Part shown: positions 17,587 through 32,801 of the stretch, in pieces
Layout: every line of letters starts with the position of its first letter
How positions within the stretch are numbered: the stretch's first letter is position 1
Assembly: GCA_018335695.1 (NCBI GenBank)
Contig: JAGXRV010000090.1
Coordinates: forward strand, 1-33,468
From: Clostridium sp.
GTDB lineage: Bacteria > Bacillota > Dethiobacteria > Dethiobacterales > Dethiobacteraceae
DNA length: 33,468 bases
Reading direction: 5' to 3'
Program-made: the position numbers and the translations under genes
Notes under the pieces: model-generated
What the model was told of the DNA's origin: nothing
The model's database searches: none
The model's input: the letters and a program-made list of their open reading frames with translations, nothing else

Positions 17587-19320
17587 TTAATAACGATTGC
17601 GCGGAGTGTAATGCGTATGAAGAAGTTTATGAGCCTTATGACTATTTGGCTCTCCGAGAAATTCTTTGTAGAGTTGTTTAACTGCGGTGTTTTCATGGGA
17701 TTTGCGCACAGCACTGGCGGCATCAATTTGATAGATGCCGGAGGCGCGCTTAGTGCGGTAATCTGAGCCGCCGTTTATGGGTTGACCGCCGCCGCCAATG
17801 CAGCCGCCGGGGCAACCCATTATTTCAATAAAGTGGTAGTCGGCTTCACCGCTTTTGACACGGTTCATAACTTCACGCGCATTTTTTAGGCCGCTGGTAA
17901 CAGCAATTTTTACGTCAACATTGTTTAGTTTTACTGTTGCTTCTTTGATACCGTTTAGACCACGGACGGCATTATATTCAAAAGTAGGTATCTCCTCGCC
18001 CGTCACCAGTTCATAAACAGTACGCAAAGCTGCTTCCGCCACGCCGCCGGTGGCTGCAAAAATAGTAGCCGCACCGGTCAGTATGCCAAAAGGTACATCA
18101 AATTCCTCATCATCAAGTTTCGAGACATCTAAGGATGCTTCTTTGATCATGCGCACTAATTCACGCGTAGTGAGAACGGCATCCACATCCCGGTAACCGC
18201 TGGCATTCATTTCCTGCCTTGCCGCTTCATACTTTTTAGCGGTACAGGGCATTAACGACACAGAATAGATATTAGCCGGGTCTATACCGTGCTTCTCAGC
18301 ATAAAATGTTTTAGCTAATGCGCCAAACATTTGCTGCGGCGACTTACAAGTGGAAAGGTTCTCTAAGAATTCCGGAAAGTTATGCTCAACAAATTTAATC
18401 CAGCCCGGACTGCAGGAAGTAATCAGCGGCAAAGGCCCGCCGTTATTTAGTCTGCCCAAAAGTTCTGTGCCTTCTTCCATAATCGTCAGGTCTGCGGTAA
18501 ACTCGGTGGTAAAAATCTTGTCGAAACCGAGACGACGCAATGCCGCCGCCATTTTGCCCGTCATCGGCAAGCCCGGTTCAAGGCCTAGAGCTTCAGCTAT
18601 ACTAACCTGCACAGCCGGAGCGGTTTGCACAATTACATGTTTCTTTGGGTCTGAAATTGCCTGCCACACATCATCAACGGCAGAACGTTCATAGATGGCG
18701 CCCACAGGACAGGTTACAGCGCACTGACCGCACTGGACGCAGACACTATCCATCAGTCCCGCTCCCGGGGGCGGCCCCACTTCGGTATCAAAGCCACGGC
18801 GATAGAAAGAAAGAGCGTCCACCGACTGAATATCACTGCAAACGCGAACACAACGACTGCAGTAGATACATTTATTAGGCTCACGAACAAGCGCCGGACT
18901 GGAGTCATCTATTTCCAGTTCCCGCTTGCGTCCTTCATAGGGAATCTCACTCACACCCATGTCGAGTGCTAACTGTTGCAATTCACAGTTGAGATTTCGT
19001 TTGCAGGAAGGACAGGCTAATGGATGATTGGCAAGAATCAGCTCGAGATTTACGCGTCGAGCTTGACGCACCATCGGCGTATTAGTATTGACTACCATTT
19101 TGTCTGCTACCGGCATTACACAGGCGGCTGCCAGGTTGCGGGCGCCGGCTACTTCTACCACACAAATGCGGCATGCGCCATCAGGGCGCAACATCGGATG
19201 ATGACAAAGAGTCGGTATTTTTACGCCGGCCAATTTTGCTGCGTCCAAGATGGTGGCACCTTTCTCGACTTGGACATCGTGGCCGTCGATTTTAACTGTA
19301 ACAATTTCCACTGTTTTCAC
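17587..19320 (-). CDS. hydA: [FeFe]-hydrogenase catalytic subunit HydA (HndD type)
   Basis: A 577-residue cytosolic H2-producing/consuming subunit of an NAD(P)-linked, probably electron-bifurcating hydrogenase. Domains in order: 2Fe-2S (Cys39, 50, 53, 67); His-ligated 4Fe-4S (His99, Cys103, 106, 112); two 4Fe-4S clusters (Cys151-161 and Cys194-204); then the H-cluster domain with TSCSPGWIKF (Cys303), MPCTAKKYE (Cys359) and EIMGCPGGCIGGGGQP (Cys503, Cys507), and a C-terminal small subunit-like region. All motifs are intact. The start is GTG after AAGGAG; a second GTG three codons in is possible. It is the last gene of the operon, 18 nt after hydB. Confidence 0.97.
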   Translation of the reverse strand: MKTVEIVTVKIDGHDVQVEKGATILDAAKLAGVKIPTLCHHPMLRPDGACRICVVEVAGARNLAAACVMPVADKMVVNTNTPMVRQARRVNLELILANHPLACPSCKRNLNCELQQLALDMGVSEIPYEGRKRELEIDDSSPALVREPNKCIYCSRCVRVCSDIQSVDALSFYRRGFDTEVGPPPGAGLMDSVCVQCGQCAVTCPVGAIYERSAVDDVWQAISDPKKHVIVQTAPAVQVSIAEALGLEPGLPMTGKMAAALRRLGFDKIFTTEFTADLTIMEEGTELLGRLNNGGPLPLITSCSPGWIKFVEHNFPEFLENLSTCKSPQQMFGALAKTFYAEKHGIDPANIYSVSLMPCTAKKYEAARQEMNASGYRDVDAVLTTRELVRMIKEASLDVSKLDDEEFDVPFGILTGAATIFAATGGVAEAALRTVYELVTGEEIPTFEYNAVRGLNGIKEATVKLNNVDVKIAVTSGLKNAREVMNRVKSGEADYHFIEIMGCPGGCIGGGGQPINGGSDYRTKRASGIYQIDAASAVRKSHENTAVKQLYKEFLGEPNSHKAHKLLHTHYTPRNRY

Positions 19321-19338
19321 ACTCTCCTTGCAGTAGGA

Positions 19339-21132
19339 TTATTCTTTAACAATGGCATGGAATGGGCAACGCTCCACGCAGACCCCGCATTTGATGCACT
19401 TAACCATATCAAGTTGATGAGCTTGTTTGCGCTCTCCGCTGATTGCACCCACAGGGCAAATCTTTGCGCAAACAGTACAGCCTACGCAAGTGTGGTCGTC
19501 AATTCGATAATAGAAGAGAGCCTGACACACACCGGCAGGGCATTTCTTGTCATGAATATGGGCTTCATATTCATGACGGAAATGGCGCAGAGTGCTTAAA
19601 ATCGGGTTGGGTGCAGTCTGCCCTAGACCGCAAAGAGCACTCGCCTTAATTGTATAAGCCAACTTCTCCAACTTAGCGATATCTTCGGGAACACCCTGTC
19701 CGGCGCAAATGCGCTCCAAAATCTCCAGCAAACGCATCGTCCCTTCCCGGCACGGGGTACATTTGCCGCATGATTCAGAACGAGTGAAAGTCAAGAAGTA
19801 GCGCGCCACGTCTACGATACAAGATTCGTCATCCATAACTACCAAACCACCCGAACCCATCATGGCGCCGGCTTGAATCAAGGAGTCATAATCAATCGGC
19901 AAGTCCAATTTGTTTTCAGGGAGGCATCCGCCGGAGGGTCCGCCAATTTGAACGGCTTTAAACTTTTTCCCTTCGAACGTGCCGCCGCCAATTTCGTAAA
20001 TAATTTCCCGCATGGTAATCCCCATCGGCACTTCCACCAGACCGGTATTACGCAATTTGCCGGTGAGGGCAAATACTTTCGTCCCTTTGCTGCGCTCTGT
20101 GCCGACGGCGGCAAATTTATCGGCACCGTACAGAATGATTTGCGGCACATTTGCAAATGTTTCCACGTTATTAATTACTGTAGGTTTACCGAAAAGGCCT
20201 TTGACGGCGGGGAAGGGAGGCCGGGACCGGGGAATGCCCCGCTCGCCTTCGATGGACGCAATCAACGCTGTTTCCTCACCGCAAACGAAAGCGCCGGCGC
20301 CTTCTTTGATTTTTAAAGTAAGGCTGAAATCTGTGCCGAGAATATTTTTCCCAAGCAAGCCGAGTTCCTCGGCTTGGCTGATCGCTGTTTGAATGCGCTT
20401 AATCGCAAGCGGATACTCAGCGCGGATATAAAGATAGCCCTCATCTGCTCCGATGGCATAGGCGGCAATCATCATACCCTCTAGAATGTTGTGCGGATCC
20501 CCTTCAAGCAGGCTTCGATCCATAAAAGCACCGGGATCCCCTTCATCAGCATTACAGATAATATATTTTTTCTCTCCTGCTGCTTTGGCGCAGAACTCCC
20601 ATTTTGTCCCAGTGGGAAAACCGCCGCCACCCCGTCCGCGCAAACCGGCTGCTTTTACGGCATTAGTCACTTCTTCAGGAGTCATTTCAGAAAGCATCTT
20701 TTCAAGCGCTGCGTAGCCGCCACGGGCAAGGTACTCGTTTAAGCTTTCCGGATCTATATAACCGCAGTTACGCAAAGCAATCCGTTGCTGCTTGCGATAA
20801 AAATCAATTTCCTGATATTTGGGTACTTTGTCGAGAGAAAGCGGTTCGGTAAAGAAAAGCCGGGCTACAGGACGTCCCTTCATTAAATGTTCACTGACAA
20901 TTTCCTGCACATCTTTAACTTCTACCCGGCAATACATCACGCCTTCAGGATAGACGATGACAAGCGGTCCTTTTTCACAGAAGCCATGACAGCCGGTCTC
21001 AACAATTTTAATTTCCTCATCCAATTTCTTCTTGCGCAACTCTTCTTGAAAAGCGGTTATAACATCCTTACAACCGGAAGAAACACAACCTGTTCCTCCG
21101 CAAATCAGCACGTGCCCACGATAAAAAACCAC
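19339..21132 (-). CDS. hydB: Hydrogenase flavoprotein subunit HydB (NuoF/HndC type)
   Basis: A 597-residue NAD(P)H-binding flavin subunit. Domains: thioredoxin-like 2Fe-2S (CGGTGC at 11-16, TGCHGFC at 47-52); the NuoF core with FMN loop GRGGGGFPTGTKWE (166-179), NADEGDPGAFMDR and GEETALIASIEGERG; the 4Fe-4S site SCGKCTPC (Cys455, 458, 461) with Cys501; and two C-terminal ferredoxin clusters (CVGCTVCAKICP, CIKCGVCVERCP). In bifurcating enzymes the flavin here is the proposed site where ferredoxin and NAD(P)H electrons meet. The start is GTG at 21132 behind GGGGAAGAGAG. It lies between hndB (46-nt gap) and hydA. Confidence 0.96.
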   Translation of the reverse strand: MVFYRGHVLICGGTGCVSSGCKDVITAFQEELRKKKLDEEIKIVETGCHGFCEKGPLVIVYPEGVMYCRVEVKDVQEIVSEHLMKGRPVARLFFTEPLSLDKVPKYQEIDFYRKQQRIALRNCGYIDPESLNEYLARGGYAALEKMLSEMTPEEVTNAVKAAGLRGRGGGGFPTGTKWEFCAKAAGEKKYIICNADEGDPGAFMDRSLLEGDPHNILEGMMIAAYAIGADEGYLYIRAEYPLAIKRIQTAISQAEELGLLGKNILGTDFSLTLKIKEGAGAFVCGEETALIASIEGERGIPRSRPPFPAVKGLFGKPTVINNVETFANVPQIILYGADKFAAVGTERSKGTKVFALTGKLRNTGLVEVPMGITMREIIYEIGGGTFEGKKFKAVQIGGPSGGCLPENKLDLPIDYDSLIQAGAMMGSGGLVVMDDESCIVDVARYFLTFTRSESCGKCTPCREGTMRLLEILERICAGQGVPEDIAKLEKLAYTIKASALCGLGQTAPNPILSTLRHFRHEYEAHIHDKKCPAGVCQALFYYRIDDHTCVGCTVCAKICPVGAISGERKQAHQLDMVKCIKCGVCVERCPFHAIVKE

Positions 21133-21178
21133 GTTAACTCTCTTCCCCTTTCTTAAGCTGCTTTACTGCGGCGCAATT

Positions 21179-21553
21179 TTACCTGGCAATTCTGCCAACC
21201 ACCAAGCCCTCCACAACACGGCCATTAACAATATGTTCGCCCACAATCCTTGACACGTCCCTCGGTACAACCCGGCCATAAGTAACGCGATCCTCATTGG
21301 GGCGCACCACATCAAGGAGCACCTCCCTTTCGCACATCCCTATACAGCCGGTCTTTGTGACACTTACATTTTTAATGTTTCTGCGCTGCAATTCTTTTAA
21401 AAGCTCTGTAACGACTTCTCTGGCACCGGCGGCAATGCCACAGGTTCCCATGCCGACAATGACTTGAATATCACACGTCTGACGGGCAGCCATTTCACCT
21501 AGCGCATCCTTGCGGAGTGCGCGCAGATCTTCCATACTCAGCAATTTGTTCAT
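21179..21553 (-). CDS. hndB: HndB-type 2Fe-2S thioredoxin-like subunit
   Basis: A 124-residue ferredoxin-like subunit found in four-subunit (HndABCD) hydrogenases. The thioredoxin-like 2Fe-2S motifs are GMGTCGIAAGAREV (Cys38) and KTGCIGMCEREV (Cys70, Cys74). It ends in a short VVEGLVVGRIAR tail. It presumably relays electrons within the complex; its presence marks this as tetrameric rather than HydABC-type. The ATG overlaps the upstream ATPase stop as ATGA, so the two are translationally coupled. Confidence 0.9.
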   Translation of the reverse strand: MNKLLSMEDLRALRKDALGEMAARQTCDIQVIVGMGTCGIAAGAREVVTELLKELQRRNIKNVSVTKTGCIGMCEREVLLDVVRPNEDRVTYGRVVPRDVSRIVGEHIVNGRVVEGLVVGRIAR

Positions 21554-22107
21554 GAAGATTCACCTCCGTAGATTGTCTGCAATTGTTCGCGAATATTTTC
21601 TTCCAACAAGCTCAAGTGCTCCGGGCGGTCAAAGCGGAAAGCAATACCCAAAAACTCTGCGAACTTTAAGCTGGAAATTTTTAATTTTTTATTTTTATAG
21701 ATGTGCAGATATTCAAATGTCACCTCTGTTTCACCCATTAACGCACTAACGATTGTCCCGGCGATATCGCCCATTGGTTGTCTGTCGGGATGACTATGTG
21801 AAAATATTGCCATTACTTCAGTGCCGTAACCGGGACTGGATTCAATCCGCAACTTTCCTCCGCACTGTGTTACCGCCATCTCCAAAAAAGCAAGACCCAA
21901 CCCAACCCGCCTTGTCTGGCGAGAGGTGCAAAACGGAGAAGTGACGTTGGCACATTGTTCCGCATTCATGCCGCAACCGTCGTCCGTCACAACAATAGAC
22001 AACTCGTCTTCTTCCGGTGCATCTTTGATTACCAGTGTGATTTTCTTCGCCCCGGCTTCCACGCTGTTTTGAATTAAATCAAGAATATGGAGCGAAAGTT
22101 CCTGCAA
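21550..22107 (-). CDS. GHKL-type ATP-binding protein of the hydrogenase operon
   Basis: A 185-residue protein with a histidine-kinase-type ATPase fold but no phospho-accepting His domain. The N box is LHILDLIQNSVEAGAKKI, the G1 box TDDGCGM and the G2 box GLGLAF. The C-terminal part has no named domain. It resembles serine-kinase/anti-sigma regulators of the SpoIIAB kind and is often seen in clostridial hydrogenase operons, role unknown. The TTG at 22107 follows AAGGGGG and gives the family start LQELSLHILD; the frame runs open to 22182. It overlaps hndB by ATGA. Confidence 0.8.
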   Translation of the reverse strand: MQELSLHILDLIQNSVEAGAKKITLVIKDAPEEDELSIVVTDDGCGMNAEQCANVTSPFCTSRQTRRVGLGLAFLEMAVTQCGGKLRIESSPGYGTEVMAIFSHSHPDRQPMGDIAGTIVSALMGETEVTFEYLHIYKNKKLKISSLKFAEFLGIAFRFDRPEHLSLLEENIREQLQTIYGGESS

Positions 22108-22120
22108 TGCTATAGCCCCC

Positions 22121-22624
22121 TTATTCGTACAAAGAAAGAATGAGAGGCACTTTATCCGCCGTAAGGCGTCCATGCGTATCACTGTTAATCATGACTACAG
22201 GAGCAAGTCCGCAAGCGCCGATGCAAGCAACCGACTCAAAAGTAAACCGCAGATCTTCAGTAGTCTCTCCGACGTCGACACCTAATTCTTCCTTAATTTT
22301 ACCTACGATCCGAGAAACACCTCGCACATGGCAAGCCGTTCCCTGGCAGACACGAATAACATTTCGTCCACGCGGCTTAAGATGAAACTGGGAATAGAAT
22401 GTCACCACTCCATATATTTTTGCTTTTGGAACATCCAGTGCTTCCGAAATCCGCAAAAGGACGGCTTCCGGCAGATAACCGTAGATGTTTTGCGCCTGCT
22501 GCAAGACGGAAATTAACATCTCAGGGCTTTTCTTATCCTTCTGCAGCAGTGCTTCCAACTTGTGAAACATGCCGTCAGAGATAAACTCAGTACATTTTTC
22601 CAATTTGACTTGTTCGAGTGCCAT
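22121..22624 (-). CDS. hydC: Hydrogenase subunit HydC (NuoE/HndA type)
   Basis: A 167-residue thioredoxin-like 2Fe-2S subunit of the NuoE family. The cluster ligands are Cys93, Cys98 (CQGTACHVRG), Cys134 and Cys138 (CIGACG). The N-terminal helical part LISVLQQAQNIYGYLPEAVL is typical. It passes electrons between the flavin subunit and the hydrogenase. The ATG at 22624 follows AAGGAGG; an upstream start at 22690 would cut into the PHP gene. Confidence 0.95.
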   Translation of the reverse strand: MALEQVKLEKCTEFISDGMFHKLEALLQKDKKSPEMLISVLQQAQNIYGYLPEAVLLRISEALDVPKAKIYGVVTFYSQFHLKPRGRNVIRVCQGTACHVRGVSRIVGKIKEELGVDVGETTEDLRFTFESVACIGACGLAPVVMINSDTHGRLTADKVPLILSLYE

Positions 22625-22643
22625 GTAGATCCTCCTTGAAGTT

Positions 22644-23408
22644 TTAAATTTTAATCTTTGCTTCAGTTTTAATACAGACTCTTCTTCCACCCTCCCCCTT
22701 TAGCGCCATACTGATTTCAGAGAGGGTTACATCCTCTGCCACATAAAAATAGGTATATTTTTCTTTGTAGAGCATCGGCAGACTGTGGGCGTCAGAAGAG
22801 CAAAGCAGTGGATAGCCCACAGTGCTTGGATGCTTTCTATGCAATTCGGCTGCATCCGAAATTGTCTCAAGTGCGGCTACCGGCAACCCCGGCGGGATAA
22901 AACCCAAGTTTCCTAACAGACTGTACTGAGGGCGATCAACGTGGGCGGCGATGGACAAACCCTGATGCCTGGCAACTGCATTGCAGACATCTTCTACAGA
23001 TAAATCGAGCGATGCCAATAATTTCCGCTGTTCAAATCTGACAACTTGATCACTGGCATTTACAACGGCTTGCACCTCCCCTGTATGCAAAGACAGCATG
23101 CTTCGTGGCAGATGTTGATCAACTAAAGCGGCAAAAGAGTTTGCCAAAAATTCATTCGGAAAAAGACAAAGCAAATGCACTTCTTCCCGCGTTTGCACTT
23201 CCATACCAAATAGTACCGTAATACCGGTGCCTCTGGCTGCTTCCTGACAGGCAACCACGTTATCAATGGCATGGTGGTCTGTGACGGCAAGCAAATTGAT
23301 ACCTAAAAGCTTAGCGGTGTTGATAATCTCACGCGGACTCATATCTAGCTCAGCGCAGGCTGAAAGCACAGTATGAACGTGCAAATCAGCTTTAATCCAT
23401 CTCAGCAT
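22644..23408 (-). CDS. PHP-domain phosphoesterase
   Basis: A 254-residue metal-dependent phosphoesterase of the PHP family. Visible metal ligands are KADLHVHTVLSACAE, AVTDHHAIDN, FGMEVQTREEVHLLCLFP and CSSDAHSLPML. The substrate is unknown; phosphorylated nucleotides or peptides are possible. It overlaps the DRTGG gene by 17 nt and precedes hydC by 19 nt. PHP proteins recur in hydrogenase clusters of clostridia, which suggests a regulatory rather than a metabolic role here. Confidence 0.9.
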   Translation of the reverse strand: MLRWIKADLHVHTVLSACAELDMSPREIINTAKLLGINLLAVTDHHAIDNVVACQEAARGTGITVLFGMEVQTREEVHLLCLFPNEFLANSFAALVDQHLPRSMLSLHTGEVQAVVNASDQVVRFEQRKLLASLDLSVEDVCNAVARHQGLSIAAHVDRPQYSLLGNLGFIPPGLPVAALETISDAAELHRKHPSTVGYPLLCSSDAHSLPMLYKEKYTYFYVAEDVTLSEISMALKGEGGRRVCIKTEAKIKI

Positions 23409-23760
23409 AGGCGCTGGGCTGCAGCCCGCGGAGATACAATCTCCCTGCTAATTCATAGATTGGCAGCATCGAGTTAAACAAGAAAATTTTCTCCTCATTT
23501 GCTTTGCGGATAGTTTCCTCTTGACAAGGCATTCCGCCGCCGATAATTACGCAAGATAACTGTAAAAGTGAGGCTAACGCCACGATATTTTGATGCCCCT
23601 GATGCGTCAACCAAAGATCATTTTGCTTGGCATTTGCCATAACCAAACTGATTAAATCGGCGACATATACACCGCCTACAGTTTTTTCAGCCGCTTGGAA
23701 ATCGGTTAATCTATTTAGTTTCAATTCTTCTGCTATTTGACTCAGAAGCAAGTCAGTCAC
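23392..23760 (-). CDS. DRTGG-domain protein
   Basis: A 122-residue single-domain DRTGG protein: GGVYVADLISLVMANAKQND, LWLTHQGHQNIVALASLL and CVIIGGGMPCQEETIRKANE. DRTGG domains are found near CBS domains and phosphotransacetylases and are thought to bind a small ligand. GTG at 23760 follows AAGGAGA and overlaps the end of the preceding gene by 8 nt. It shares its fold with the N-terminal part of the protein at 25124-25939. Ligand and role are unknown. Confidence 0.8.
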   Translation of the reverse strand: MTDLLLSQIAEELKLNRLTDFQAAEKTVGGVYVADLISLVMANAKQNDLWLTHQGHQNIVALASLLQLSCVIIGGGMPCQEETIRKANEEKIFLFNSMLPIYELAGRLYLRGLQPSAYAEMD

Positions 23761-25102
23761 TCTCCTTGGGTTTATCTTTTACGCTTCGATTAAGGGAAGG
23801 CGGGAGAATCTTGCTCAAAACCAACACTTCATCCGCCAGTAACATAATTTTTTCGCGCAGCTTAAAAATGCAATCTACTTCCAGCGCTTTATTTAGAGCT
23901 ACATCCTCTGCCAGAGCTTTGCACGTTGGCGAACCGCAGGAGCCGCAGTCAAGTCCGGGCAACTGTTCCAATACAAGATCGTACTTTTTCATAATTTTGA
24001 TTGCTTCTTCCAAATCCGGAGCGAAAGCTCCTGTACTCATAGTTTCCGGCATTACAATTTGTTCTTTTACCTCCAGTTCTTCGGCTGAGAAGGGCGTTGC
24101 CCGCTCCAACTGGGCAGATAACGAACCTTGTTCTTTCATCAGCCAGCGCAGTTGCACTCTGGCTTGAAAACGGTTCTGAATATTAAGAAACCCTCCGACA
24201 CAACCACCGTCACACGCTTGCAACTCCAGAAAATCAACACCTTGCAGACGATTCATGTCAACTTCCTCTAATACCTTTTGCACATTACGGATGCCATCCA
24301 CCGTCAAATAATTCGCCGCCTGCACTGCCGCCTGTTCGCCGCCAGCCATACTCCACTTGATTCCACGAACTCCCGGTGCCACCATAAATTTAAAGTCAGT
24401 ATCCGGGTTGCTCAGTCCCCTAATTTTAGGAAAAATTTCCGCCACAGAAATTACCCCATCAACGCTATGGCCGCTTTGATTGAGCAAATTTTTGACGGCA
24501 GAAGCTTTGGCAGAACAGGGTGTGAGAAAGAATGTGCCGATCTCTTCCGGAGACAAGCCACTATCGCGGGCGGCATAAATTTTAGCAAGTCTGCCGGCAA
24601 GCTCCATAGGAGACTCCAGTGGGATAAGCTGTGGAATGAGCCCGGGGAATTTTACCTGTATCAAGCGAACGACAGCCGGACAAGCGGAGGAAATCAGCGG
24701 GTCGTTATTTTTCTTTTCGTGCAGAATCTTTTTAATTTCTTCGGAGATGATTTCAGCAGCAAAGGCAACATCCATCACGTGATTAAAACCAACTTGGCGA
24801 AGTGCGGCATGAACATGACAGATAGTGGTACTTTTCTTAAACTGACCATAAAATGATGGCGGGACGAGTGCAATTTTGTATGGGTAGCTTACCAACGCAT
24901 TCAGCCCGTCGGTAACCACAGCTTTAGCTAAATTAGGACAAGCGCGAATACATTCTCCGCAATCAATACAACGCTCTTCGGAAATCACTGCCTTCCCTTG
25001 GCGAACACGAATGGCTTCCGTCGGGCACTGTTTAATGCAGTTGACGCAACCGATACATTTTTCGTGTTTTAAGAAAACCGAATGGCGATATTTTGTGCTC
25101 AT
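23753..25102 (-). CDS. [FeFe]-hydrogenase-like (HsfB-type) iron-sulfur protein
   Basis: A 449-residue protein with two N-terminal ferredoxin clusters (Cys16-26, Cys45-55), an Fe-hydrogenase large-subunit C-terminal-like domain and a C-terminal 4Fe-4S motif (CGSCGSPTC, then Cys411). H-cluster loop 1 is SSACPAVVRL instead of TSCxPxW; loop 2 is FLTPCSAKAS; loop 3 is LELQACDGGCVGG with the CxxxC spacing kept. The Cys that in enzymes relays protons appears to be Ala, as reported for sensory HydS-type proteins. It is therefore more likely a sensor or assembly partner than a fast enzyme. The ATG at 25102 follows GGAGG/AGGA; a GTG at 25123 is the alternative. Confidence 0.85.
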   Translation of the reverse strand: MSTKYRHSVFLKHEKCIGCVNCIKQCPTEAIRVRQGKAVISEERCIDCGECIRACPNLAKAVVTDGLNALVSYPYKIALVPPSFYGQFKKSTTICHVHAALRQVGFNHVMDVAFAAEIISEEIKKILHEKKNNDPLISSACPAVVRLIQVKFPGLIPQLIPLESPMELAGRLAKIYAARDSGLSPEEIGTFFLTPCSAKASAVKNLLNQSGHSVDGVISVAEIFPKIRGLSNPDTDFKFMVAPGVRGIKWSMAGGEQAAVQAANYLTVDGIRNVQKVLEEVDMNRLQGVDFLELQACDGGCVGGFLNIQNRFQARVQLRWLMKEQGSLSAQLERATPFSAEELEVKEQIVMPETMSTGAFAPDLEEAIKIMKKYDLVLEQLPGLDCGSCGSPTCKALAEDVALNKALEVDCIFKLREKIMLLADEVLVLSKILPPSLNRSVKDKPKESD

Positions 25103-25123
25103 TCTTTTCCTAGCCTCCGACAC

Positions 25124-25939
25124 TTAATAACGAAGCAGTATCTCAAGCCTTGTTCCAACTCCCACTTCTGATTGCATAATCAGGCTATCTGCGCAGCGAT
25201 TGATATTTGGCAAGCCCATGCCGGCGCCATAACCCATTTCCCGTACTGCCGGCGGCGCAGTGGAATAGCCCTCCTGCATAGCCAAATCGATATCTAAAAT
25301 ACCGGGCCCATCATCTTCCACAATTATAAGGACACTATTTGGACCCAGTTTCAACTGCAGCTTGCCGCAACGAGCATGAATAATCACGTTCAGTTCCGCC
25401 TCATAAGCGGCGATGGCTGCCCGAGTCACAGTTTTGTGGTGCACACCCAGGTTTTCCAGGCGCTGCTTAATTTTTTTGGTGACATGACCTGCCGCAAGGA
25501 AATCACCGCCGCTGATGGGGTATTCAACAATTGTGATAAGCTTTTCTTCTTCGCTCTGCGGGACAATTTCCGCTTTCTCTTTAACCCGCTTAGTCCCAGG
25601 GAGCCCAGCTTGAAAAAGAAGTCCGGCTGCTTCATATTTAGCTAGCGGAGTGCTAAAACAGTTAATGCCGTCTTTAGTTGCTTGTTGAAGAAAATCAGCG
25701 CCCGGCTGCCTTCCTTGCACAAAAACAATGGCTTTTATATTCGTAAGAGATATCAGCGTAGTTAACTGCGGACCAATTAATGAAGTCAAAAGCAAAACGC
25801 CGTCTGAACCTAGGGATTCAAGTGAGAGAACGTCGCTTACTAAATCTGCATCGCAGACGCAGTAAACCTGAGTGTCATTAAACTCGGTTCCGGCAAGCAA
25901 AGTGGCATCTAAAATCTGCTTAATTTCAACAAGTTTCAT
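25124..25939 (-). CDS. DRTGG-HATPase fusion regulator
   Basis: A 271-residue protein: an N-terminal DRTGG domain (MKLVEIKQILDATLLAGTEF, then GSDGVLLLTSLIG) and a C-terminal GHKL ATPase of the anti-sigma-factor kind (N box AYEAELNVIIHA, G1 EDDGPGI, G2 MGYGAGMGLPNINR). It probably acts as a serine kinase or partner-switch protein responding to a small ligand. It is the first gene of the hydrogenase operon, directly behind the sigma-54 promoter. The ATG at 25939 has GGGGGG and begins like other DRTGG proteins; a start at 25978 has a weaker site. Confidence 0.8.
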   Translation of the reverse strand: MKLVEIKQILDATLLAGTEFNDTQVYCVCDADLVSDVLSLESLGSDGVLLLTSLIGPQLTTLISLTNIKAIVFVQGRQPGADFLQQATKDGINCFSTPLAKYEAAGLLFQAGLPGTKRVKEKAEIVPQSEEEKLITIVEYPISGGDFLAAGHVTKKIKQRLENLGVHHKTVTRAAIAAYEAELNVIIHARCGKLQLKLGPNSVLIIVEDDGPGILDIDLAMQEGYSTAPPAVREMGYGAGMGLPNINRCADSLIMQSEVGVGTRLEILLRY

Positions 25940-26021
25940 AGCCGCCCCCCAATCATGAACCAAATTCTCTGCATTCACCTATCGTAGTGGAAAACGCAAA
26001 CTATTTACTAACTGTTTTATA

Positions 26022-26037
26022 AGCAATAACCATGCCA
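26022..26037 (-). promoter_or_regulatory. Sigma-54 (-24/-12) promoter of the hydrogenase operon
   Basis: TGGCATGGTTATTGCT on the minus strand. Compared with TGGCAC-N5-TTGCW it has one mismatch and the exact N5 spacing, with the invariant GG and GC in place. The start of transcription would be near 26011, some 70 nt before the first gene. Confidence 0.8.
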
Positions 26038-26113
26038 AGTTTTCGAAGAGAAGAAAAGTTATGCAAAACAAGCATAATAGTCAGAATTTTAAGGACGACA
26101 AGCTTAAAGCAGA

Positions 26114-26132
26114 CTGTCCAAATTTGAAACAG
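26114..26132. promoter_or_regulatory. Candidate activator-binding palindrome, site 1
   Basis: CTGTCCAAATTTGAAACAG, an inverted repeat (CTGT-N11-ACAG), centred about 112 nt upstream of the predicted sigma-54 start. It shares CTGTCC and the half-site spacing with two other sites. Confidence 0.6.
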
Positions 26133-26182
26133 TTAAAATTTTCACAAAATTTATATTAAGAAATCATGGGCACTTACGTCTG

Positions 26183-26201
26183 CTGTCCGAAAAATAGACA
26201 G
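26183..26201. promoter_or_regulatory. Candidate activator-binding palindrome, site 2
   Basis: CTGTCCGAAAAATAGACAG, the best inverted repeat of the set (CTGTC...GACAG). It is centred 69 bp from site 1 and about 180 nt upstream of the predicted start, a normal place for enhancer sites. Confidence 0.65.
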
Positions 26202-26270
26202 TGTACAAATACATAGACACCTTGACTTTATTGCCTGCCATGAAGTTAAGGTAATTTAGCATTTTAGCAA

Positions 26271-26294
26271 ATAAAAACCGCCCCTAATAGGCGG
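26271..26294 (-). terminator. Terminator after the sigma-54 activator gene
   Basis: CCGCC/GGCGG stem with a short loop, followed by TTTTTAT on the minus strand. It separates the activator transcript from the sigma-54 promoter. Confidence 0.7.
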
Positions 26295-26396
26295 ATTCAG
26301 CTTTGAAGTCAAATTTCAGATATCAGAATCGTTGACGCCAGCAAAAGAGCCGGCCACAAACATAATTTTTACAAGCTCAATCTTTTCGTCTGCGCC

Positions 26397-26618
26397 CCCT
26401 CACCCTAGCCCTCTCCCCCCATAGGGTGGAGAGGGAATAAGAGAATCCGTCGCCCTCTCCACCATTAGGCGGCTACCGGCGATAGTACTGACCGCCGACA
26501 AAAGGTGTATAAAAGAATCCGTCGCCTTCTCCCTCCTTAGGGTGGTGCAAGGCTCTCCCCCCCTGGAAGATAGTATAAGAACATCCCCTCTCCCCCTGGG
26601 AGAGGGTTAGGGTGAGGG
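26397..26618. repeat. Inverted-repeat element (CCCTCACCCTAGCCCTCTCCC type)
   Basis: The left arm 26397-26417 and right arm 26598-26618 are complementary at 20 of 21 positions. Inside, AGAATCCGTCGCC followed by an yTCTCC tail occurs twice (about 26442 and 26513). It carries no gene and ends 10 nt from the activator stop. REP/MITE-like; such arms are widespread in bacterial genomes. Confidence 0.75.
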
Positions 26619-26628
26619 CACAATTGTC

Positions 26629-28863
26629 TTATAACAAACTATAACGATTTAACTTTTCATAGAAGGTAGAGCGATGCAAACCCAAAATCTTGGCAGCTTT
26701 GGAACGATTATTTTTTGTTGCCCTTAAAGCGTTAACGATTGCTTCTTTTTCTATTTCAGCCGTCATATTGCTTAAGCTGGGTCCTGACTTTAAAAAACGA
26801 TCGCCTTGAATATGCTGCCAAAGATAAGCCGGCAAATGTTCTACGCCAATAATTCTTTCTTCCACCATATTGAGCAGCCTTTCCAAGATATTTTCCAGCT
26901 CTCTGACGTTCCCTGGCCAAGAATAACGGCAAAAAATGCTCATTACATCTTCGCTTACAGTTTTTGCCTGGATATGATACTTCTTGCAAATTCTCTCAAT
27001 TAAATTTTCAACAAGCTGCGGAATATCAGCAGGCACCTCTCGCAGTGAAGGCAGAGATAAAGTGAGCACATCCAAGCGATAATACAAATCCTCACGAAAA
27101 GAACCAAGCCTGACCTCTTTGCGTAAATCTTTATTTGTAGCAGCAATAATCCTAACATCTATCGGGATGCTATGATGTCCTCCGACACGTTCAATCTCTC
27201 TCTCATGGAGAACGCGCAACATTTTTGCTTGCATGTTTAAAGGCATATCGCCTATTTCATCAAGGAAAATCGTGCCGCCGTCAGCAACTTGGAATTTACC
27301 CGTCTTGCCTCCCTTTTGAGCGCCGCTAAACGCTCCTTCTTCATAGCCAAAAAGTTCAGATTCGAGCAAACTCTCCGGTATAGCGCTGCAATTCACTTTG
27401 ATAAACGGACCCTCTTTGCGTGCCCCCCCAAAGTGAATTGCACGAGCAAAAAGCCCTTTGCCTGTGCCGCTCTCCCCAAGCAACAAAACAGTAGAGCTGC
27501 TTTGCGCCGCCTTGATAACAAAGTTTTTTGCCGCCTGGATCTGCTTGGAATTACCGATAATTTGCCTTGAAATACCGCTTAGAACTTCCATACGCTCGAT
27601 CTCCTGGCGGTAGTGCGAAATCTCTTGTTGCGACTTATGCAGGAGAAACGGCAGGCACATATTTACTTCCGCAAGCTCCAGATAGACTGCCACCGCCTTG
27701 TCCCGGCAAGTATTGTATCCGCAAGCTCCACAATTTAACTCGTCTGTATCTTTGAACTTGCCGGTGACTTTTAAAATTTCCCGGATATGCTCTTCACTCG
27801 GTCTCACTTTCTTTTTAGCTTGAGCAGTAAACTTACGGGAAAGATCCACAAATACTGCCGGGGTGGGAGAGACAAAATTGGCACGTTGATGCACATAATT
27901 AGCCACTTTTTTCCTGCGCAAATTGGAACTGTGCGAATCACATAAATCAGGACCATCTATACAGCCCCGGCAAAACAAGATATCAACCAGCGCGGAAGAA
28001 AACTGCTTTGCCTCAATAGCATTAAGTGTTTCCATAACGTCTTGCAAGCCTTCGACAACCACATTGCTCTGATCCAAAATATCATTTTGCAATCTGGCCG
28101 CTTTTAAGAGCCCGCCGGCCAAAGGAAAGACGCCTCCCAATGAAGCGCCGGGTCCGTCAAAGCTCGCCGGCTGAACAGTTGAAAGTGTTATGCCATTTTC
28201 AGAAAACAATTCTTTTAATTCGGAAAATGTCAGGACGAAATCTACTTCGCCTGCCACGGACAGATGGTCAATTTCGCTTTTCTTGGCTATACAAGGTCCG
28301 ATAAAAACGATGCCCGCCTGCTCACCATAAAGTTTTTTTGCCACCCGGGCGGAGGCAATCATGGGAGAAACTACAGGGATAAGCTGGCTGATTAAGCGTG
28401 GGTAATATTTTTCGACAAGGTTGATAATAGCGGGACATGGGGAAGTTATCAGCGGAGCCGCCGTCCGTTTGTTCGCATAAAGTCGGCTGTATTCGCGGGC
28501 AACAAGCTCCGCGCCGTAAGCCACTTCGCACACTTTGTCAAAACCGACTGCTTTCAAGGCGCCCACTAACTGCTCCGGAGCTGTGTCAAACGCAGCTACA
28601 AAAGATGGCGCCAAAAGCGCTGCAACCAGCTTCTTGCGTGACAGCAACTGCAAAACGCCTGCAACATCGTTCTGCACCAGCTTCGCACCCTGAGAACACA
28701 CATTTTTACAAGTGCCACAAGTTATGCAAATAGACTCGGTAACACTAACCTGACCGTCTTTTACTCTAATCGCCTTTACGGGACAGTTACGCAAACATGC
28801 GTAACATCGTTTACAAAGTTCAGACTCTGTCTTTACAATGGGCACCGCCTTCACCCTTTCCAA
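26629..28863 (-). CDS. Hydrogenase-like sensor fused to sigma-54 activator
   Basis: A 744-residue one-protein sensor and activator. Order: two 4Fe-4S clusters (Cys17-27, Cys46-56); an Fe-hydrogenase C-terminal-like domain (about 75-345) with TSPCPAII (Cys143), FIGPCIAKK (Cys191) and ILFCRGCIDGP (Cys298, Cys301); a 4Fe-4S motif CGACGYNTC...C (Cys378-403); a coiled linker; the AAA+ domain with Walker A GESGTGKG (463-470), GAFSGA loop (510-515), Walker B GGTIFLDEIGD (529-539) and SWPGNVREL; and a Fis-type HTH (NNRSKAAKILGLHRSTFYEK). The intact GAFSGA loop marks a true sigma-54 activator. The start is TTG 28863, or more likely GTG 28845 behind AAAGGGTGAAGG. It lies between hydG and the operon it probably controls. 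Confidence 0.93.
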   Translation of the reverse strand: MERVKAVPIVKTESELCKRCYACLRNCPVKAIRVKDGQVSVTESICITCGTCKNVCSQGAKLVQNDVAGVLQLLSRKKLVAALLAPSFVAAFDTAPEQLVGALKAVGFDKVCEVAYGAELVAREYSRLYANKRTAAPLITSPCPAIINLVEKYYPRLISQLIPVVSPMIASARVAKKLYGEQAGIVFIGPCIAKKSEIDHLSVAGEVDFVLTFSELKELFSENGITLSTVQPASFDGPGASLGGVFPLAGGLLKAARLQNDILDQSNVVVEGLQDVMETLNAIEAKQFSSALVDILFCRGCIDGPDLCDSHSSNLRRKKVANYVHQRANFVSPTPAVFVDLSRKFTAQAKKKVRPSEEHIREILKVTGKFKDTDELNCGACGYNTCRDKAVAVYLELAEVNMCLPFLLHKSQQEISHYRQEIERMEVLSGISRQIIGNSKQIQAAKNFVIKAAQSSSTVLLLGESGTGKGLFARAIHFGGARKEGPFIKVNCSAIPESLLESELFGYEEGAFSGAQKGGKTGKFQVADGGTIFLDEIGDMPLNMQAKMLRVLHEREIERVGGHHSIPIDVRIIAATNKDLRKEVRLGSFREDLYYRLDVLTLSLPSLREVPADIPQLVENLIERICKKYHIQAKTVSEDVMSIFCRYSWPGNVRELENILERLLNMVEERIIGVEHLPAYLWQHIQGDRFLKSGPSLSNMTAEIEKEAIVNALRATKNNRSKAAKILGLHRSTFYEKLNRYSLL

Positions 28864-28893
28864 ACAAGCTACAAGTTTAGTATAGCATGAAGG

Positions 28894-28912
28894 CTGTCCA
28901 AAAAACAGACAA
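28894..28912. promoter_or_regulatory. Candidate activator-binding palindrome, site 3
   Basis: CTGTCCAAAAAACAGACAA, same pattern as sites 1 and 2 with the last base changed. It lies 31 nt upstream of the activator gene, next to a minus-strand TATACT (28879-28884). Looser half-sites follow at 28915-28944 (TTGTCA, GGACAG, GACAG). This could be autoregulation. Confidence 0.55.
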
Positions 28913-29012
28913 AGTTGTCAAAGAAAACGGACAGCAACAGACAGTTTCCAGGTATCGCCGGCACAATACAATTCAAGTTTATGACTTCGTTCTGAAAAAA
29001 TTGCTTTCGCTT

Positions 29013-30452
29013 TTAAAGATAAATATCCCGCTCACCTGCTTCGATACGCTGCAAGCGTTCTCGTGTAACGGAGCGCACTTTTTCGTTTGCGATTTCCTCC
29101 AGATGACACTTGATTGTTTCCTCCCCGACTTTGCGTGTTTCCTGTGAAGCATAGTCAAGCAGGTACTCTTTAAAGGTTAATAAGGCATTTGGTTGGCAAA
29201 CGTTTTGGATTTGGCCATTTTTTGCCAAAGCCATAAAGCGATCACCTGTGCGCCCTTGCCGATAACAAGCGGTACAGTAGCTGGGAAGATAGCCGGACTG
29301 ACAAACGCTATGCACCACTTCATCGGGAGTTCTGTGGTCATCAACAGAAAATTGCGCTTTGGCATCATCTTCTTCGAAACTACGATGCTTCTCGCGTTTG
29401 TATCCCCCTACGCCGGTGCAACTGCCGGCGGAGAGCTGCGAAATTCCATAGTTAAGCAATTTTTCCCTCAGCGCCGGTTTCTCTCTTGTAGAGAGAATCA
29501 AGCCGGTATAAGGAACGGCGAGACGAATGACAGCAGTCAGTTTGGCAAAATCAGCATCAGAAACCAGATAGGGAAACTGTTCCAAAGACATTCCCAAGGC
29601 CGGACGCAGACGCGGCACGGAAATGGTGTGCGGCCCTACTCCATATCGCTCTTCAAGACTGAGAGCGTGCTGCAGCATAGCCAACACTTCAAACTTATAG
29701 TCATAGAGCCCAAAGAGAACTCCAAAACCGACGTCATCAATCCCGGCTTGCATCGCCCTGTGATGTGCGGTAGTATGCCAGTCATAATCGGCTTTGGGAC
29801 CGGAAGGATGCATAAGTTCATACGTTTTTCGGTGATACGTTTCCTGAAAAAGGATATAAGTGCCGATGCCGGCGCTTTTCAGACGTTTGTAGTCTTCTAT
29901 AGTTGTGGCGGCAATATTAACATTAACGCGGCGGATACTGCCGTTTTTAAACTTTATACTGTAAATGGTGCGAATACTTTCCAAAATATAATCAAGCGGA
30001 CATTCTGCCGGATGCTCGCCAGCCTCCAGCGCAATCCGCTTATGTCCCAAGCTCTCCAGTATCTTTATTTCTTCCACCAATTGCGCTTTCGTCAGTTTGC
30101 GGCGCTGAAAACCGTTTTCCCGTTTATAACCGCAGTAAGCACAATTATTAATGCAGTAGTCACTGACATATAACGGCGCAAAAAGTACCAACCTTTTACC
30201 ATATATTTTCAGTTTTACTTCTTTCGCAGCCTCGAATATTTCCGACAGCAGCTGCTTATCGGTTACCTGCAGCAAAACGGCCACTTCAGCAATAGTGAGC
30301 CCCCGAGCTTGTCGGGCGGCAGCAATAAGCGCTCGTACCATCGAGTGCGTAGCCGCTTTCCCCTGTTCCAGAAGATTATTAATTTGTTCTTCATTGATAA
30401 AGTCGGCCGGACACCATTGACTGTGCCGGCTAACGGCCAAATTATCACACAT
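29013..30452 (-). CDS. hydG: [FeFe]-hydrogenase maturase HydG
   Basis: A 479-residue radical-SAM tyrosine lyase that makes the CO and CN ligands of the H-cluster from tyrosine. The SAM cluster motif is YCINNCAYCGYKREN (Cys100, 104, 107). The C-terminal auxiliary-cluster motif is CQSGYLPSYCTACYRQGRTGD. ThiH-like core and full length. The ATG at 30452 overlaps the hydF stop (ATGTGTGA) with AAAGGA in front, so translation is coupled. It is last of the TM1266-hydE-hydF-hydG run and is followed after 149 nt by the sigma-54 activator. Confidence 0.96.
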   Translation of the reverse strand: MCDNLAVSRHSQWCPADFINEEQINNLLEQGKAATHSMVRALIAAARQARGLTIAEVAVLLQVTDKQLLSEIFEAAKEVKLKIYGKRLVLFAPLYVSDYCINNCAYCGYKRENGFQRRKLTKAQLVEEIKILESLGHKRIALEAGEHPAECPLDYILESIRTIYSIKFKNGSIRRVNVNIAATTIEDYKRLKSAGIGTYILFQETYHRKTYELMHPSGPKADYDWHTTAHHRAMQAGIDDVGFGVLFGLYDYKFEVLAMLQHALSLEERYGVGPHTISVPRLRPALGMSLEQFPYLVSDADFAKLTAVIRLAVPYTGLILSTREKPALREKLLNYGISQLSAGSCTGVGGYKREKHRSFEEDDAKAQFSVDDHRTPDEVVHSVCQSGYLPSYCTACYRQGRTGDRFMALAKNGQIQNVCQPNALLTFKEYLLDYASQETRKVGEETIKCHLEEIANEKVRSVTRERLQRIEAGERDIYL

Positions 30453-31701
30453 GACCAATCATTCCTTTCTTCTCATTCTTCTCCTCCAACAGTTGCCGCA
30501 GTTCGGGAAAAGGAGAAAGAGATCGCGGCAAAATACCCATTAAATGTGCAATAGCAACACCATAATTTACAATTGGCACGCCGGCCTGCTGAGCCTGAGC
30601 AATTCTTGCCAGCATTTCCCGGCGATTAATCATACAGCCTCCGCAATGAATTACTAATCTGTATTCTGCGAGATTTTCCGGAAAACCGTAGCCGCTCGAC
30701 CAAGAAAACTCCAGCTCTCCTCCCACTGCTTGGCGTAACAGAGCTGGAATCTTTACTCTGCCGATATCTCCTTCGACGCGGTGATGAGTACACGCTTCCG
30801 CCAACAATACCTTATCTCCGTGTCGCAGACTATCCATTGCTTTCGCACCCTTAACCAAGGCTGCTAAATCTCCTTTGTAGCGGGCAAACAAAATTGAGAA
30901 AGATGTCAAAAGCACAGTAGGAGGAGTTTCCTTCGCGGCACTCAGAAATGCCTGCGAGTCTGTAATCACAATTTTCGGTTTCCCGGCAATCTGAGCAAGC
31001 GCCTCTTTTAATTCTCCCTCCATCACGACAAGAGAGAGCGCATGATGATCAAGGATATCGCGAATCGTCTGCACCTGAGGAAGAATCAGGCGTCCTTTTG
31101 GCGCAGCCTTATCAATCGGGACAAGCAAAACAGCCAAATCACCCGGTTGCAGCAAATCGCCCACAATCGTTCTCTCATCCCAGGCATCGGGGGCGGCAGC
31201 GATGATAGCAAGTTTTAACTCAAGCAAACCGGCACCGGTAAAGGCACTGACTACTATCGGCTCTATGCCAAGCTTCTCGTGATACTTCTTTTTTTGTTCT
31301 TCCGCCGCCATATTAAGGTCAGACTTATTCAACACTCCTACCAAAGGCACTCCCTTTTCACGGCAAAGCTCAGCTATCATTGCTTCATGTTGCGAAACCT
31401 GATTGCCGGCCTCCATGACTAAGAGCACCAAATCAGCCTTCTTTAAAACCGCGCGTGACTTTTTTACACGCAGCGCACCCAACTCGCCTTCATCATCAAT
31501 TCCCGCAGTATCAATCAGCACCACCGGACCTATCGGCAAAATCTCCATTGCTTTATAAACCGGATCAGTGGTAGTGCCGGGCACCGCAGAAACGAGAGCG
31601 ATATCTTGGTTTGTCAACGCATTGATCAAACTTGACTTCCCAGCGTTTCTGCGGCCAAAAATAGCAATATGCAAACGATTTCCCCGCGGTGTATTCAGCA
31701 T
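30445..31701 (-). CDS. hydF: [FeFe]-hydrogenase maturation GTPase HydF
   Basis: A 418-residue GTPase and scaffold on which the 2Fe subcluster is assembled before transfer to HydA. The P-loop is GRRNAGKSSLINAL (16-29), G3 DTAGIDDEG and G4 NKSD. The C-terminal cluster-binding residues are ACTHHRVEGD and HCGGCMINRREM. GGTGAG precedes the ATG. It lies 35 nt after hydE and overlaps hydG by 8 nt. Confidence 0.96.
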   Translation of the reverse strand: MLNTPRGNRLHIAIFGRRNAGKSSLINALTNQDIALVSAVPGTTTDPVYKAMEILPIGPVVLIDTAGIDDEGELGALRVKKSRAVLKKADLVLLVMEAGNQVSQHEAMIAELCREKGVPLVGVLNKSDLNMAAEEQKKKYHEKLGIEPIVVSAFTGAGLLELKLAIIAAAPDAWDERTIVGDLLQPGDLAVLLVPIDKAAPKGRLILPQVQTIRDILDHHALSLVVMEGELKEALAQIAGKPKIVITDSQAFLSAAKETPPTVLLTSFSILFARYKGDLAALVKGAKAMDSLRHGDKVLLAEACTHHRVEGDIGRVKIPALLRQAVGGELEFSWSSGYGFPENLAEYRLVIHCGGCMINRREMLARIAQAQQAGVPIVNYGVAIAHLMGILPRSLSPFPELRQLLEEKNEKKGMIGHV

Positions 31702-31736
31702 TATCTCACCTTTTCCATTTTGCTTTCATTTTTGCC

Positions 31737-32801
31737 TCAGCGCAAACCAAGCGCAAATTGTTCTTTTGGACTATGACCTGCATCTTCCGCCACAGTCCTG
31801 CCCAAAGAGCTGATAATCCCGCCGATACAGTTACGACAGTGAGCCGGATTATCATCCAGGCAAATTTTGTTAGGATATATCTCATAGAGTCGGCGATATT
31901 TGTTTGGCGTTATATTTGGCATCACGACATTTGCCCCCGCAACTAAAGCCTTTTGTCGACCCTTACTATCAATGCTGCCAAGCGCGGTGGTCGCCGGCAA
32001 ATGTGCCTGAGGCATAAGCAACCGAGCAATCGCAATCATTTTCAGTGTCATTTCCACAGTCCCGCGCTGCGCTTTAGCCAAAGGTGTGTTTGCATTGGGA
32101 ATAAACGGACCGATCCCGGCCATTTCCACATCCAGCTCCTTTAAAAAGAGCAAATCTGCTGCTAACGATGTCAAAGTCTGCCCCGGCAACCCCACCATGC
32201 AGCCTGATCCTATCTGGTAACCAAGTTCACGTAGTGTGTAAAGAGATTTTTTCCTGTTATCCCAAGTCATATCAGGGTGCAGCGCTCCGTAAAGCTCTGC
32301 ATCCGCCGTTTCATGTTTAAGCAAATAACGATCCGCTCCTGCATCGCGCCACAGCCTGTAGTCTTCCTCCGCTCTTTCGCCCAAGCTGAGCGTGACCGCC
32401 AAACTCAATTCTTCCTTCAGCCGGCTGGTGACTTCGGCAATAATCTCTGCGCTGTAGTATGAGTCCTCACCTGACTGCAAGACGACAGTTTTATAGCCAA
32501 GCGGCACAGCAGCACCGGCGATAGCCAATATTTCAGCTGCATCCAGCCGATAACGGGGCAATGTTTTATGGCTTTCCCGCAAACCGCAATATGCACAGTT
32601 GCGCTCGCAGTAATTTGAAAATTCGATTAAGCCGCGCAGATGGACTGCATCACCCATAAAGCTTCTCCGCACTTGGTCTGCGGCGGCAAAAAGAAAATCA
32701 AGCTCCGACCCTTCGCAACTCAGAAGTGTTTCAATTTCGTCTCTATCCAGTTTATGCTCCGCCGATGCCTGCTCAATAATACGTTCACATTTTTTCTGCA
32801 T
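31737..32801 (-). CDS. hydE: [FeFe]-hydrogenase maturase HydE
   Basis: A 354-residue radical-SAM enzyme of the BioB-like family that acts on the HydG product during H-cluster assembly. The SAM cluster is FSNYCERNCAYCGLRESH (Cys65, 69, 72). A second, non-essential cluster site near the end is Cys314, Cys322 and Cys325 (CLDDNPAHCRNC). AAGGAGCAGTT precedes the ATG. It lies 9 nt after the TM1266-type gene. Confidence 0.95.
   Translation of the reverse strand: MQKKCERIIEQASAEHKLDRDEIETLLSCEGSELDFLFAAADQVRRSFMGDAVHLRGLIEFSNYCERNCAYCGLRESHKTLPRYRLDAAEILAIAGAAVPLGYKTVVLQSGEDSYYSAEIIAEVTSRLKEELSLAVTLSLGERAEEDYRLWRDAGADRYLLKHETADAELYGALHPDMTWDNRKKSLYTLRELGYQIGSGCMVGLPGQTLTSLAADLLFLKELDVEMAGIGPFIPNANTPLAKAQRGTVEMTLKMIAIARLLMPQAHLPATTALGSIDSKGRQKALVAGANVVMPNITPNKYRRLYEIYPNKICLDDNPAHCRNCIGGIISSLGRTVAEDAGHSPKEQFALGLR

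Follow-up and report, generated by a model that had tools for sequence, protein, structure and literature searches.

Probable enhancer sites of a hydrogenase-like sigma-54 activator, one overlapped by a candidate Rex operator, upstream of a bifurcating-hydrogenase operon in a relative of Dethiobacter

Two matching palindromes upstream of a hydrogenase operon, found in a window of 33,468 nucleotides (contig JAGXRV010000090.1 of the Clostridium sp. assembly GCA_018335695.1, whose closest named relatives are Dethiobacter MAGs), are very probably, judging from comparisons of sequence, the landing sites of an enhancer-binding protein (EBP) with a hydrogenase-like sensor, which would activate the adjacent hydrogen-metabolism genes. 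The model that best accounts for the locus, and in which we place considerable confidence, joins activation by the sensor EBP with anti-activation by Rex at the enhancer. The geometry of the sites (UAS), their conservation, the type of target and the conservation of the Rex site all come from comparison among genomes. What appears to be new is the family-wide definition of the UAS, a predicted regulon largely dedicated to hydrogenases, a third copy of the site and a putative composite Rex/UAS element.

Genes and features of the window

On the minus strand of the window, hydE, hydF and hydG come first, then the activator gene and, across a gap of 650 bp, an operon that ends with hydC, hydB and hydA. 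The names hydE and hydG were given from position and radical-SAM/BATS domains.

29013..32801, minus strand: H-cluster maturation genes, upstream of the activator
31737-32801, minus strand: hydE
30445-31701, minus strand: hydF, H-cluster maturation
29013-30458, minus strand: hydG
26629..28845, minus strand: EBP (activator) gene, from domain content and start-codon comparison
25124..25978, minus strand: first gene of the target operon (HATPase_c C-terminal part)
23753..25123, minus strand: HydS-like putative sensory [FeFe] hydrogenase gene
17587..23760, minus strand: rest of the target operon
23392-23760, minus strand: DRTGG gene of the target operon
22644-23408, minus strand: PHP gene of the target operon
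22121-22690, minus strand: hydC of the target operon
21550-22182, minus strand: second HATPase gene of the target operon
21179-21553, minus strand: ferredoxin-like gene of the target operon
19339-21132, minus strand: hydB of the target operon
17587-19320, minus strand: hydA of the target operon

The source genome encodes rpoN, and no Rfam element was detected in 25900-29100. The conserved ATG start of the first target-operon gene lies probably at 25939, while for the activator the GTG at 28845 was preferred over the TTG at 28863, because the latter is TGG in both sister species. The stretch 21550-25978, encoding two HATPase_c proteins, the HydS-like hydrogenase, the DRTGG protein and the PHP protein, is a possible extra signalling layer beside the EBP. 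The regulatory features are given here in their order along the minus strand, those from the hairpin onwards lying in the gap.

28894..28912, minus strand: UAS3 (TTGTCTGTTTTTTGGACAG), third copy of the site, covering the -35 of the predicted sigma-A promoter that precedes the activator gene
28879..28887, minus strand: extended -10 element preceding the activator gene, TGCTATACT (both sister species have TGCTATAAT), predicted from the consensus
26278..26294, minus strand: terminator-like hairpin upstream of UAS2, which would end the activator transcript
26183..26201, minus strand: UAS2, distal enhancer site, minus-strand letters CTGTCTATTTTTCGGACAG
26130..26147, minus strand: putative Rex operator, TTGTGAAAATTTTAACTG
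26114..26132, minus strand: UAS1, proximal enhancer site, TGT-N11-ACA, minus-strand letters CTGTTTCAAATTTGGACAG
26022..26038, minus strand: sigma-54 promoter (-24/-12), a perfect element TTGGCATGGTTATTGCT, supported by the alignment of relatives and by rpoN in the genome

Between the activator 3' end and the terminator, inverted CCCTCACCCT-N2-CCCTCTCCC arms at 26397-26618 form two exact copies, where none was expected; they resemble a MITE/REP-like insertion, a possible reason why the length of the gap differs among relatives.

The palindrome pair in the source genome

The earlier note had described two palindromes sharing CTGTCC-N7-RRACAG with equal half-site spacing, and both were confirmed at 26114-26132 and 26183-26201 (forward letters CTGTCCAAATTTGAAACAG and CTGTCCGAAAAATAGACAG, respectively), as imperfect dyads with 4/6 and 5/6 arm pairs matched. 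With the sigma-54 element at 26022-26038, transcription is predicted to start near 26012, which puts the site centres about 111 and 180 bp upstream, in agreement with the claimed distances of about 112 and 180 nt. The UAS of AdhR, AorR, PrdR and others in Clostridiales are described as TGT-N10-12-ACA (Nie et al., 2019; PMC6615313), and the same type of repeat recurs here as TGT-N11-ACA at 26114, 26183 and 28894. The first two fall within the usual range of 100-250 bp from a -24/-12 promoter, on its upstream side, and are conserved in relatives together with EBP and target. The 69 bp separating UAS1 from UAS2 correspond to a non-integer number of helical turns, a point against the model.

In the genome-wide motif count the exact pattern matched only twice in the 2.35-Mb genome, both times in this gap. 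Allowing up to one mismatch gave 41 matches against 42 for the reversed control, and a wider regulon sought in the source genome showed no excess of near matches. Of four other exact CTGTC-N9-GACAG sites, the three examined (all but the one on C94) fall within open frames 255-295 codons long. When pairs of dyads in the gap were scored post hoc against 400 dinucleotide shuffles, the best score was 20, that of the named pair, and was reached by 150 of the shuffles; single-sequence significance of the pair was rejected on this ground. Since the pattern had moreover been derived from the pair itself, the single sequence proves nothing and the comparative tests decide. The shuffles leave some room for the two palindromes to be chance look-alikes, but their sequence, spacing and position are kept in sister species and the N11 geometry is enriched family-wide, making this extremely unlikely.

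Conservation in close relatives

Activator orthologs occur in two sister species, at 93 and 92% identity, and in one other genus at 72%. The expectation that relatives with the same operon would keep the sites held true in both sister species, where UAS1 and UAS2 keep a spacing of 69 bp and a distance of 91-92 bp to the sigma-54 (-24) element, while the remainder of the gap differs by 700 bp (activator stop to promoter being 592, 749 and 1307 bp across the three Dethiobacter genomes). The alignment of the three gaps has 54.5% invariant columns, against which UAS1 showed 16/19 and the sigma-54 element 16/17. For UAS2 the count was 13/19, weak if taken alone (binomial P 0.16), with TGTC and CGGACA of both arms intact. 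The 72% relative, G006, has a degenerate CTGTACAATTTTGGGACAC at the place equivalent to UAS1.

The activator and its sensor

The EBP comprises an N-terminal 4Fe-4S part, Fe_hyd_lg_C, an FeS motif (Cx2Cx4Cx16C), Sigma54_activat and HTH_8. Its sensor resembles the putatively sensory group C/D [FeFe] hydrogenases TmHydS and TamHydS (PMC8163306) in having two N-terminal 4Fe-4S motifs, a C-terminal Cx2Cx4Cx16C, an H-domain devoid of the proton-transfer cysteine and a gene encoded together with a bifurcating hydrogenase. Across 14 aligned EBPs the L1 ligand cysteine is kept and the proton-transfer cysteine lost ([PAYF]CP, i.e., PCP, ACP, YCP or FCP), and both L2, as GPC[IV]AKK, and the C-terminal motif are retained, so that the cluster cysteines of L1 and L2 persist. 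Unlike in TmHydS and TamHydS, L3 is CxGC in 14/14 orthologs, one residue shorter than the canonical CxxxC, which makes an intact H-cluster uncertain; we therefore describe the sensor as working like these proteins rather than file it as a member of the group. It further differs from them in being fused to a sigma-54 AAA+ domain and an HTH, instead of to PAS or to nothing. An AlphaFold model of the EBP built from four sequences had a mean pLDDT of 42 and was unusable save for the HTH end.

Geometry of the sites below activator orthologs of other families

A search with the EBP alignment mostly turned up EBPs whose sensor part is unrelated; true orthologs came in number from the phylum-wide search, where 44 of 398 genomes gave matches and nearly all of these were full-length orthologs. 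The gap from activator ortholog to downstream sigma-54 promoter was tested in 22 cases, with the Dethiobacter lineage excluded. TGT-N11-ACA occurred 28 times as compared to a shuffled mean of 1.1, a count that 0/500 shuffles reached, while the other spacings between N6 and N16 occurred 0-5 times each, N12 being mildly raised (5, reached by 2/500 shuffles). Taking one gap per family, the count was 10 vs. 0.42. Examples are TGTAAAGAAATTATACA in L186 and TGTATAGTTTTCATACA in L190, and sites of the TGTCTAAAAAATAGACA type are present three apiece in L194, L195, and L199. The motif accompanied 18/21 loci with a tyrosine-type HTH (...RSTFYEKL...) and 0/10 of the RSTLNE type, loci that are phylogenetically dependent, and it was absent from the gap in L176-L178, three orthologs that share the HTH class of the window's EBP. 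Together with the conservation in sister species, this enrichment identifies the pair as highly probable UAS of the neighbouring EBP, and the geometry tracking the HTH class supports the earlier suggestion that dimers of such a protein would bind there.

Binding by another regulator, e.g., a repressor or a response regulator, in place of the adjacent EBP could be considered given that TGT/ACA half-sites are used by many regulators and that EBP binding to the palindromes is predicted. We regard it as very unlikely: across families the sites accompany the EBP and sit at sigma-54 promoters in a geometry matching the HTH class, copies are found at the EBP's own promoter, and no other gene between hydE and hydA has a recognised DNA-binding domain.

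Downstream of the orthologs lie HydABC-type [FeFe] hydrogenase operons (L204-L206, L210, L215, L219) or [NiFe] hydrogenase operons (L207, L209, L211, L217, and L201/L067). A minority, mainly with the RSTLNE-type HTH, had no hydrogenase in the stretch covered (L208, L213, L214, L216, L218). In L067/L201 and L180/L207 the gene for the [NiFe] hydrogenase small subunit comes directly after that of the EBP with the hydrogenase-like sensor, and an [FeFe]-type sensor apparently controls a [NiFe] enzyme there. Genome G150 has a second sigma-54 promoter before its HydB/HydA genes (L204, 2213-2463, oriented to the operon), with TGTCC...GGAC-type palindromes carrying one extra spacer base (TGTCCGAAAACAAAGACA, TGTCCTAAAATTAGGACG). 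In L208 and L218 (orthologs of family f20), which have another HTH class, no TGT-N11-ACA and no hydrogenase in the 7 kb covered, a small conserved ORF (about 60 codons, ...ELTPAELNAAYARLEERYNCLRSNWEWF...) lies downstream of the sigma-54 promoter.

A candidate Rex operator at the edge of UAS1

The earlier reading was right in kind and incomplete, having missed both the copy at 28894-28912 and a Rex-like block at 26130-26147. The latter is the best-conserved element of the gap, with 18/18 columns invariant in the three Dethiobacter genomes, within a fully invariant stretch of 26 bp that is the longest non-coding one. It reads TTGTGAA-AATT-TTAACtg as compared to TTGTKAA-N4-TTMACAA, with two outer mismatches, and its last 3 bp (26130-26132) are common to UAS1, where they form the CTG of a half-site. 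The genome harbors a single rex gene, whose own promoter carries an operator-like site, TTGTTAATATTTTAACAC. Of 20 genomes of the order, six contain the 16-bp core, each exactly once and in every case ahead of the hydrogenase operon. Two of these, G002 and G003, have a perfect Rex palindrome TTGTGAAAATTTTAACAA, with outer bases AA as compared to TG in the window, located 35 bp downstream of a sigma-A promoter (TTGACA-N17-TATGAT); an activator ortholog was not found in either genome. Rex input thus seems to be retained across differences in promoter type and activator.

The AT-rich block beside UAS1 might instead be a DNA-bending element serving the EBP sites, and not a Rex operator. Its conserved stretch exceeds the 18-bp Rex core, it holds two A/T tracts about 11 bp, roughly one helical turn, apart (AAATTTTGTGAAAATTTT), and HU-assisted looping has been proposed for the adhA promoter under AdhR in C. 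beijerinckii (PMC7017808). The recurrence of the same 16-mer in G002 and G003, as a perfect Rex palindrome at a sigma-A promoter, where with no EBP ortholog found a loop would be unneeded, and the presence of rex with an operator-like site of its own make bending as the whole explanation improbable, and the two roles could coexist. With the candidate Rex operator as the preferred reading, its sharing of an edge with UAS1 suggests that bound Rex would sterically exclude the EBP from that site.

The third site and the activator's own promoter

UAS3 is identical in the three Dethiobacter genomes, whereas in G006 its left arm is degraded (ATGAC for TTGTC). L180, L196, L197, and L201 have similar sites 77-88 nt ahead of the EBP gene, and a sigma-54 element looked for upstream of the EBP gene in these loci was not found. 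UAS3 is probably an autoregulatory site, autorepression of the EBP being the likeliest reading. That the site is a neutral relic, or helps to activate something else, is a doubtful but serious alternative: the sigma-A promoter call rests on the consensus -10 only and the G006 arm is degraded, whereas identity in three species over the -35, the analogous sites before other EBPs and the missing sigma-54 element in those loci speak for autorepression.

Proposed regulation and relation to known systems

The model that we infer extends to EBP and Rex binding, their competition, autorepression and the signal. When the signal is right, presumably the H2 or redox state, EBP dimers would bind UAS1 and UAS2, form an AAA+ ring and loop over about 90-160 bp to the sigma-54 RNA polymerase at 26022-26038, firing the bifurcating-hydrogenase operon. 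At low NADH/NAD+, Rex on its operator would keep the EBP off the proximal site; at high NADH it would leave the operator overlapping the inner edge of UAS1. On UAS3 the EBP would cover the -35 of its own sigma-A promoter and limit its synthesis. Two redox signals therefore appear to meet at one control switch. The bifurcating hydrogenase couples NADH, ferredoxin and H2, and the overlap with the Rex site predicts that this enzyme is under a two-input logic, with NADH/NAD+ as one input and H2 or redox as the other. The chances seem evenly balanced for the wider proposition that a widespread class of [FeFe]-hydrogenase-like H2/redox sensors in Bacillota are direct sigma-54 EBPs with a definable site, controlling [FeFe] and [NiFe] operons, and that in Dethiobacter a Rex operator has been joined to the proximal enhancer, with an NADH-sensing repressor blocking the enhancer and not the promoter. 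The motif allows other hydrogenase regulons in the phylum to be annotated.

The arrangement resembles the UAS/EBP regulons of Clostridiales, with a Fis-type HTH, several TGT-ACA palindromes per promoter, the EBP gene beside its target and UAS that mostly precede a TTGGCAT-N5-TTGCT promoter by 100-250 bp; in the part of that survey consulted, unlike here, Fe_hyd_lg_C EBPs are given as a domain type only, "hydrogenase" appears once and a hydrogenase-operon regulon is absent (PMC6615313). Rex sites that precede [FeFe] as well as [NiFe] hydrogenase operons, with binding shown, are known from Caldicellulosiruptor bescii (PMC6391272), and Rex plus HydS has been proposed for Hnd of Solidesulfovibrio fructosivorans (PMC10084766); the sections consulted of these two reports differ from our case in describing neither a sigma-54 EBP nor an enhancer overlap. 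The signal output of hydrogenase-like sensors has been described as an open question (PMC8163306), and a sensor fused to a sigma-54 activator with a defined DNA site makes signal transfer testable in vitro. Our literature search, covering sources other than subscription papers and supplements, returned no report of the activator's site and none of a UAS overlapped by a Rex operator.

The sigma-54 promoter of adhA in Clostridium beijerinckii, served by AdhR/SigL, likewise has several UAS, tested by mutation and mobility shift, and the same genes belong to the Rex regulon, with only a modest effect of Rex loss; it differs in its GAF-type EBP, its alcohol dehydrogenase target and, in the available text, the lack of operator-UAS overlap (PMC7017808). 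A second pairing of a Rex-like site with a sigma-54 promoter was observed in the same genome as the window (L174, contig C83 of G000), where an iron alcohol dehydrogenase gene adjoins the gene of a GAF/PAS-type EBP and, in the gap 1781-2235, the Rex-like site lies 10 bp upstream of the sigma-54 promoter TGGCACGTTTCTTGC, a pairing on alcohol dehydrogenase that has its precedent in C. beijerinckii (PMC7017808).
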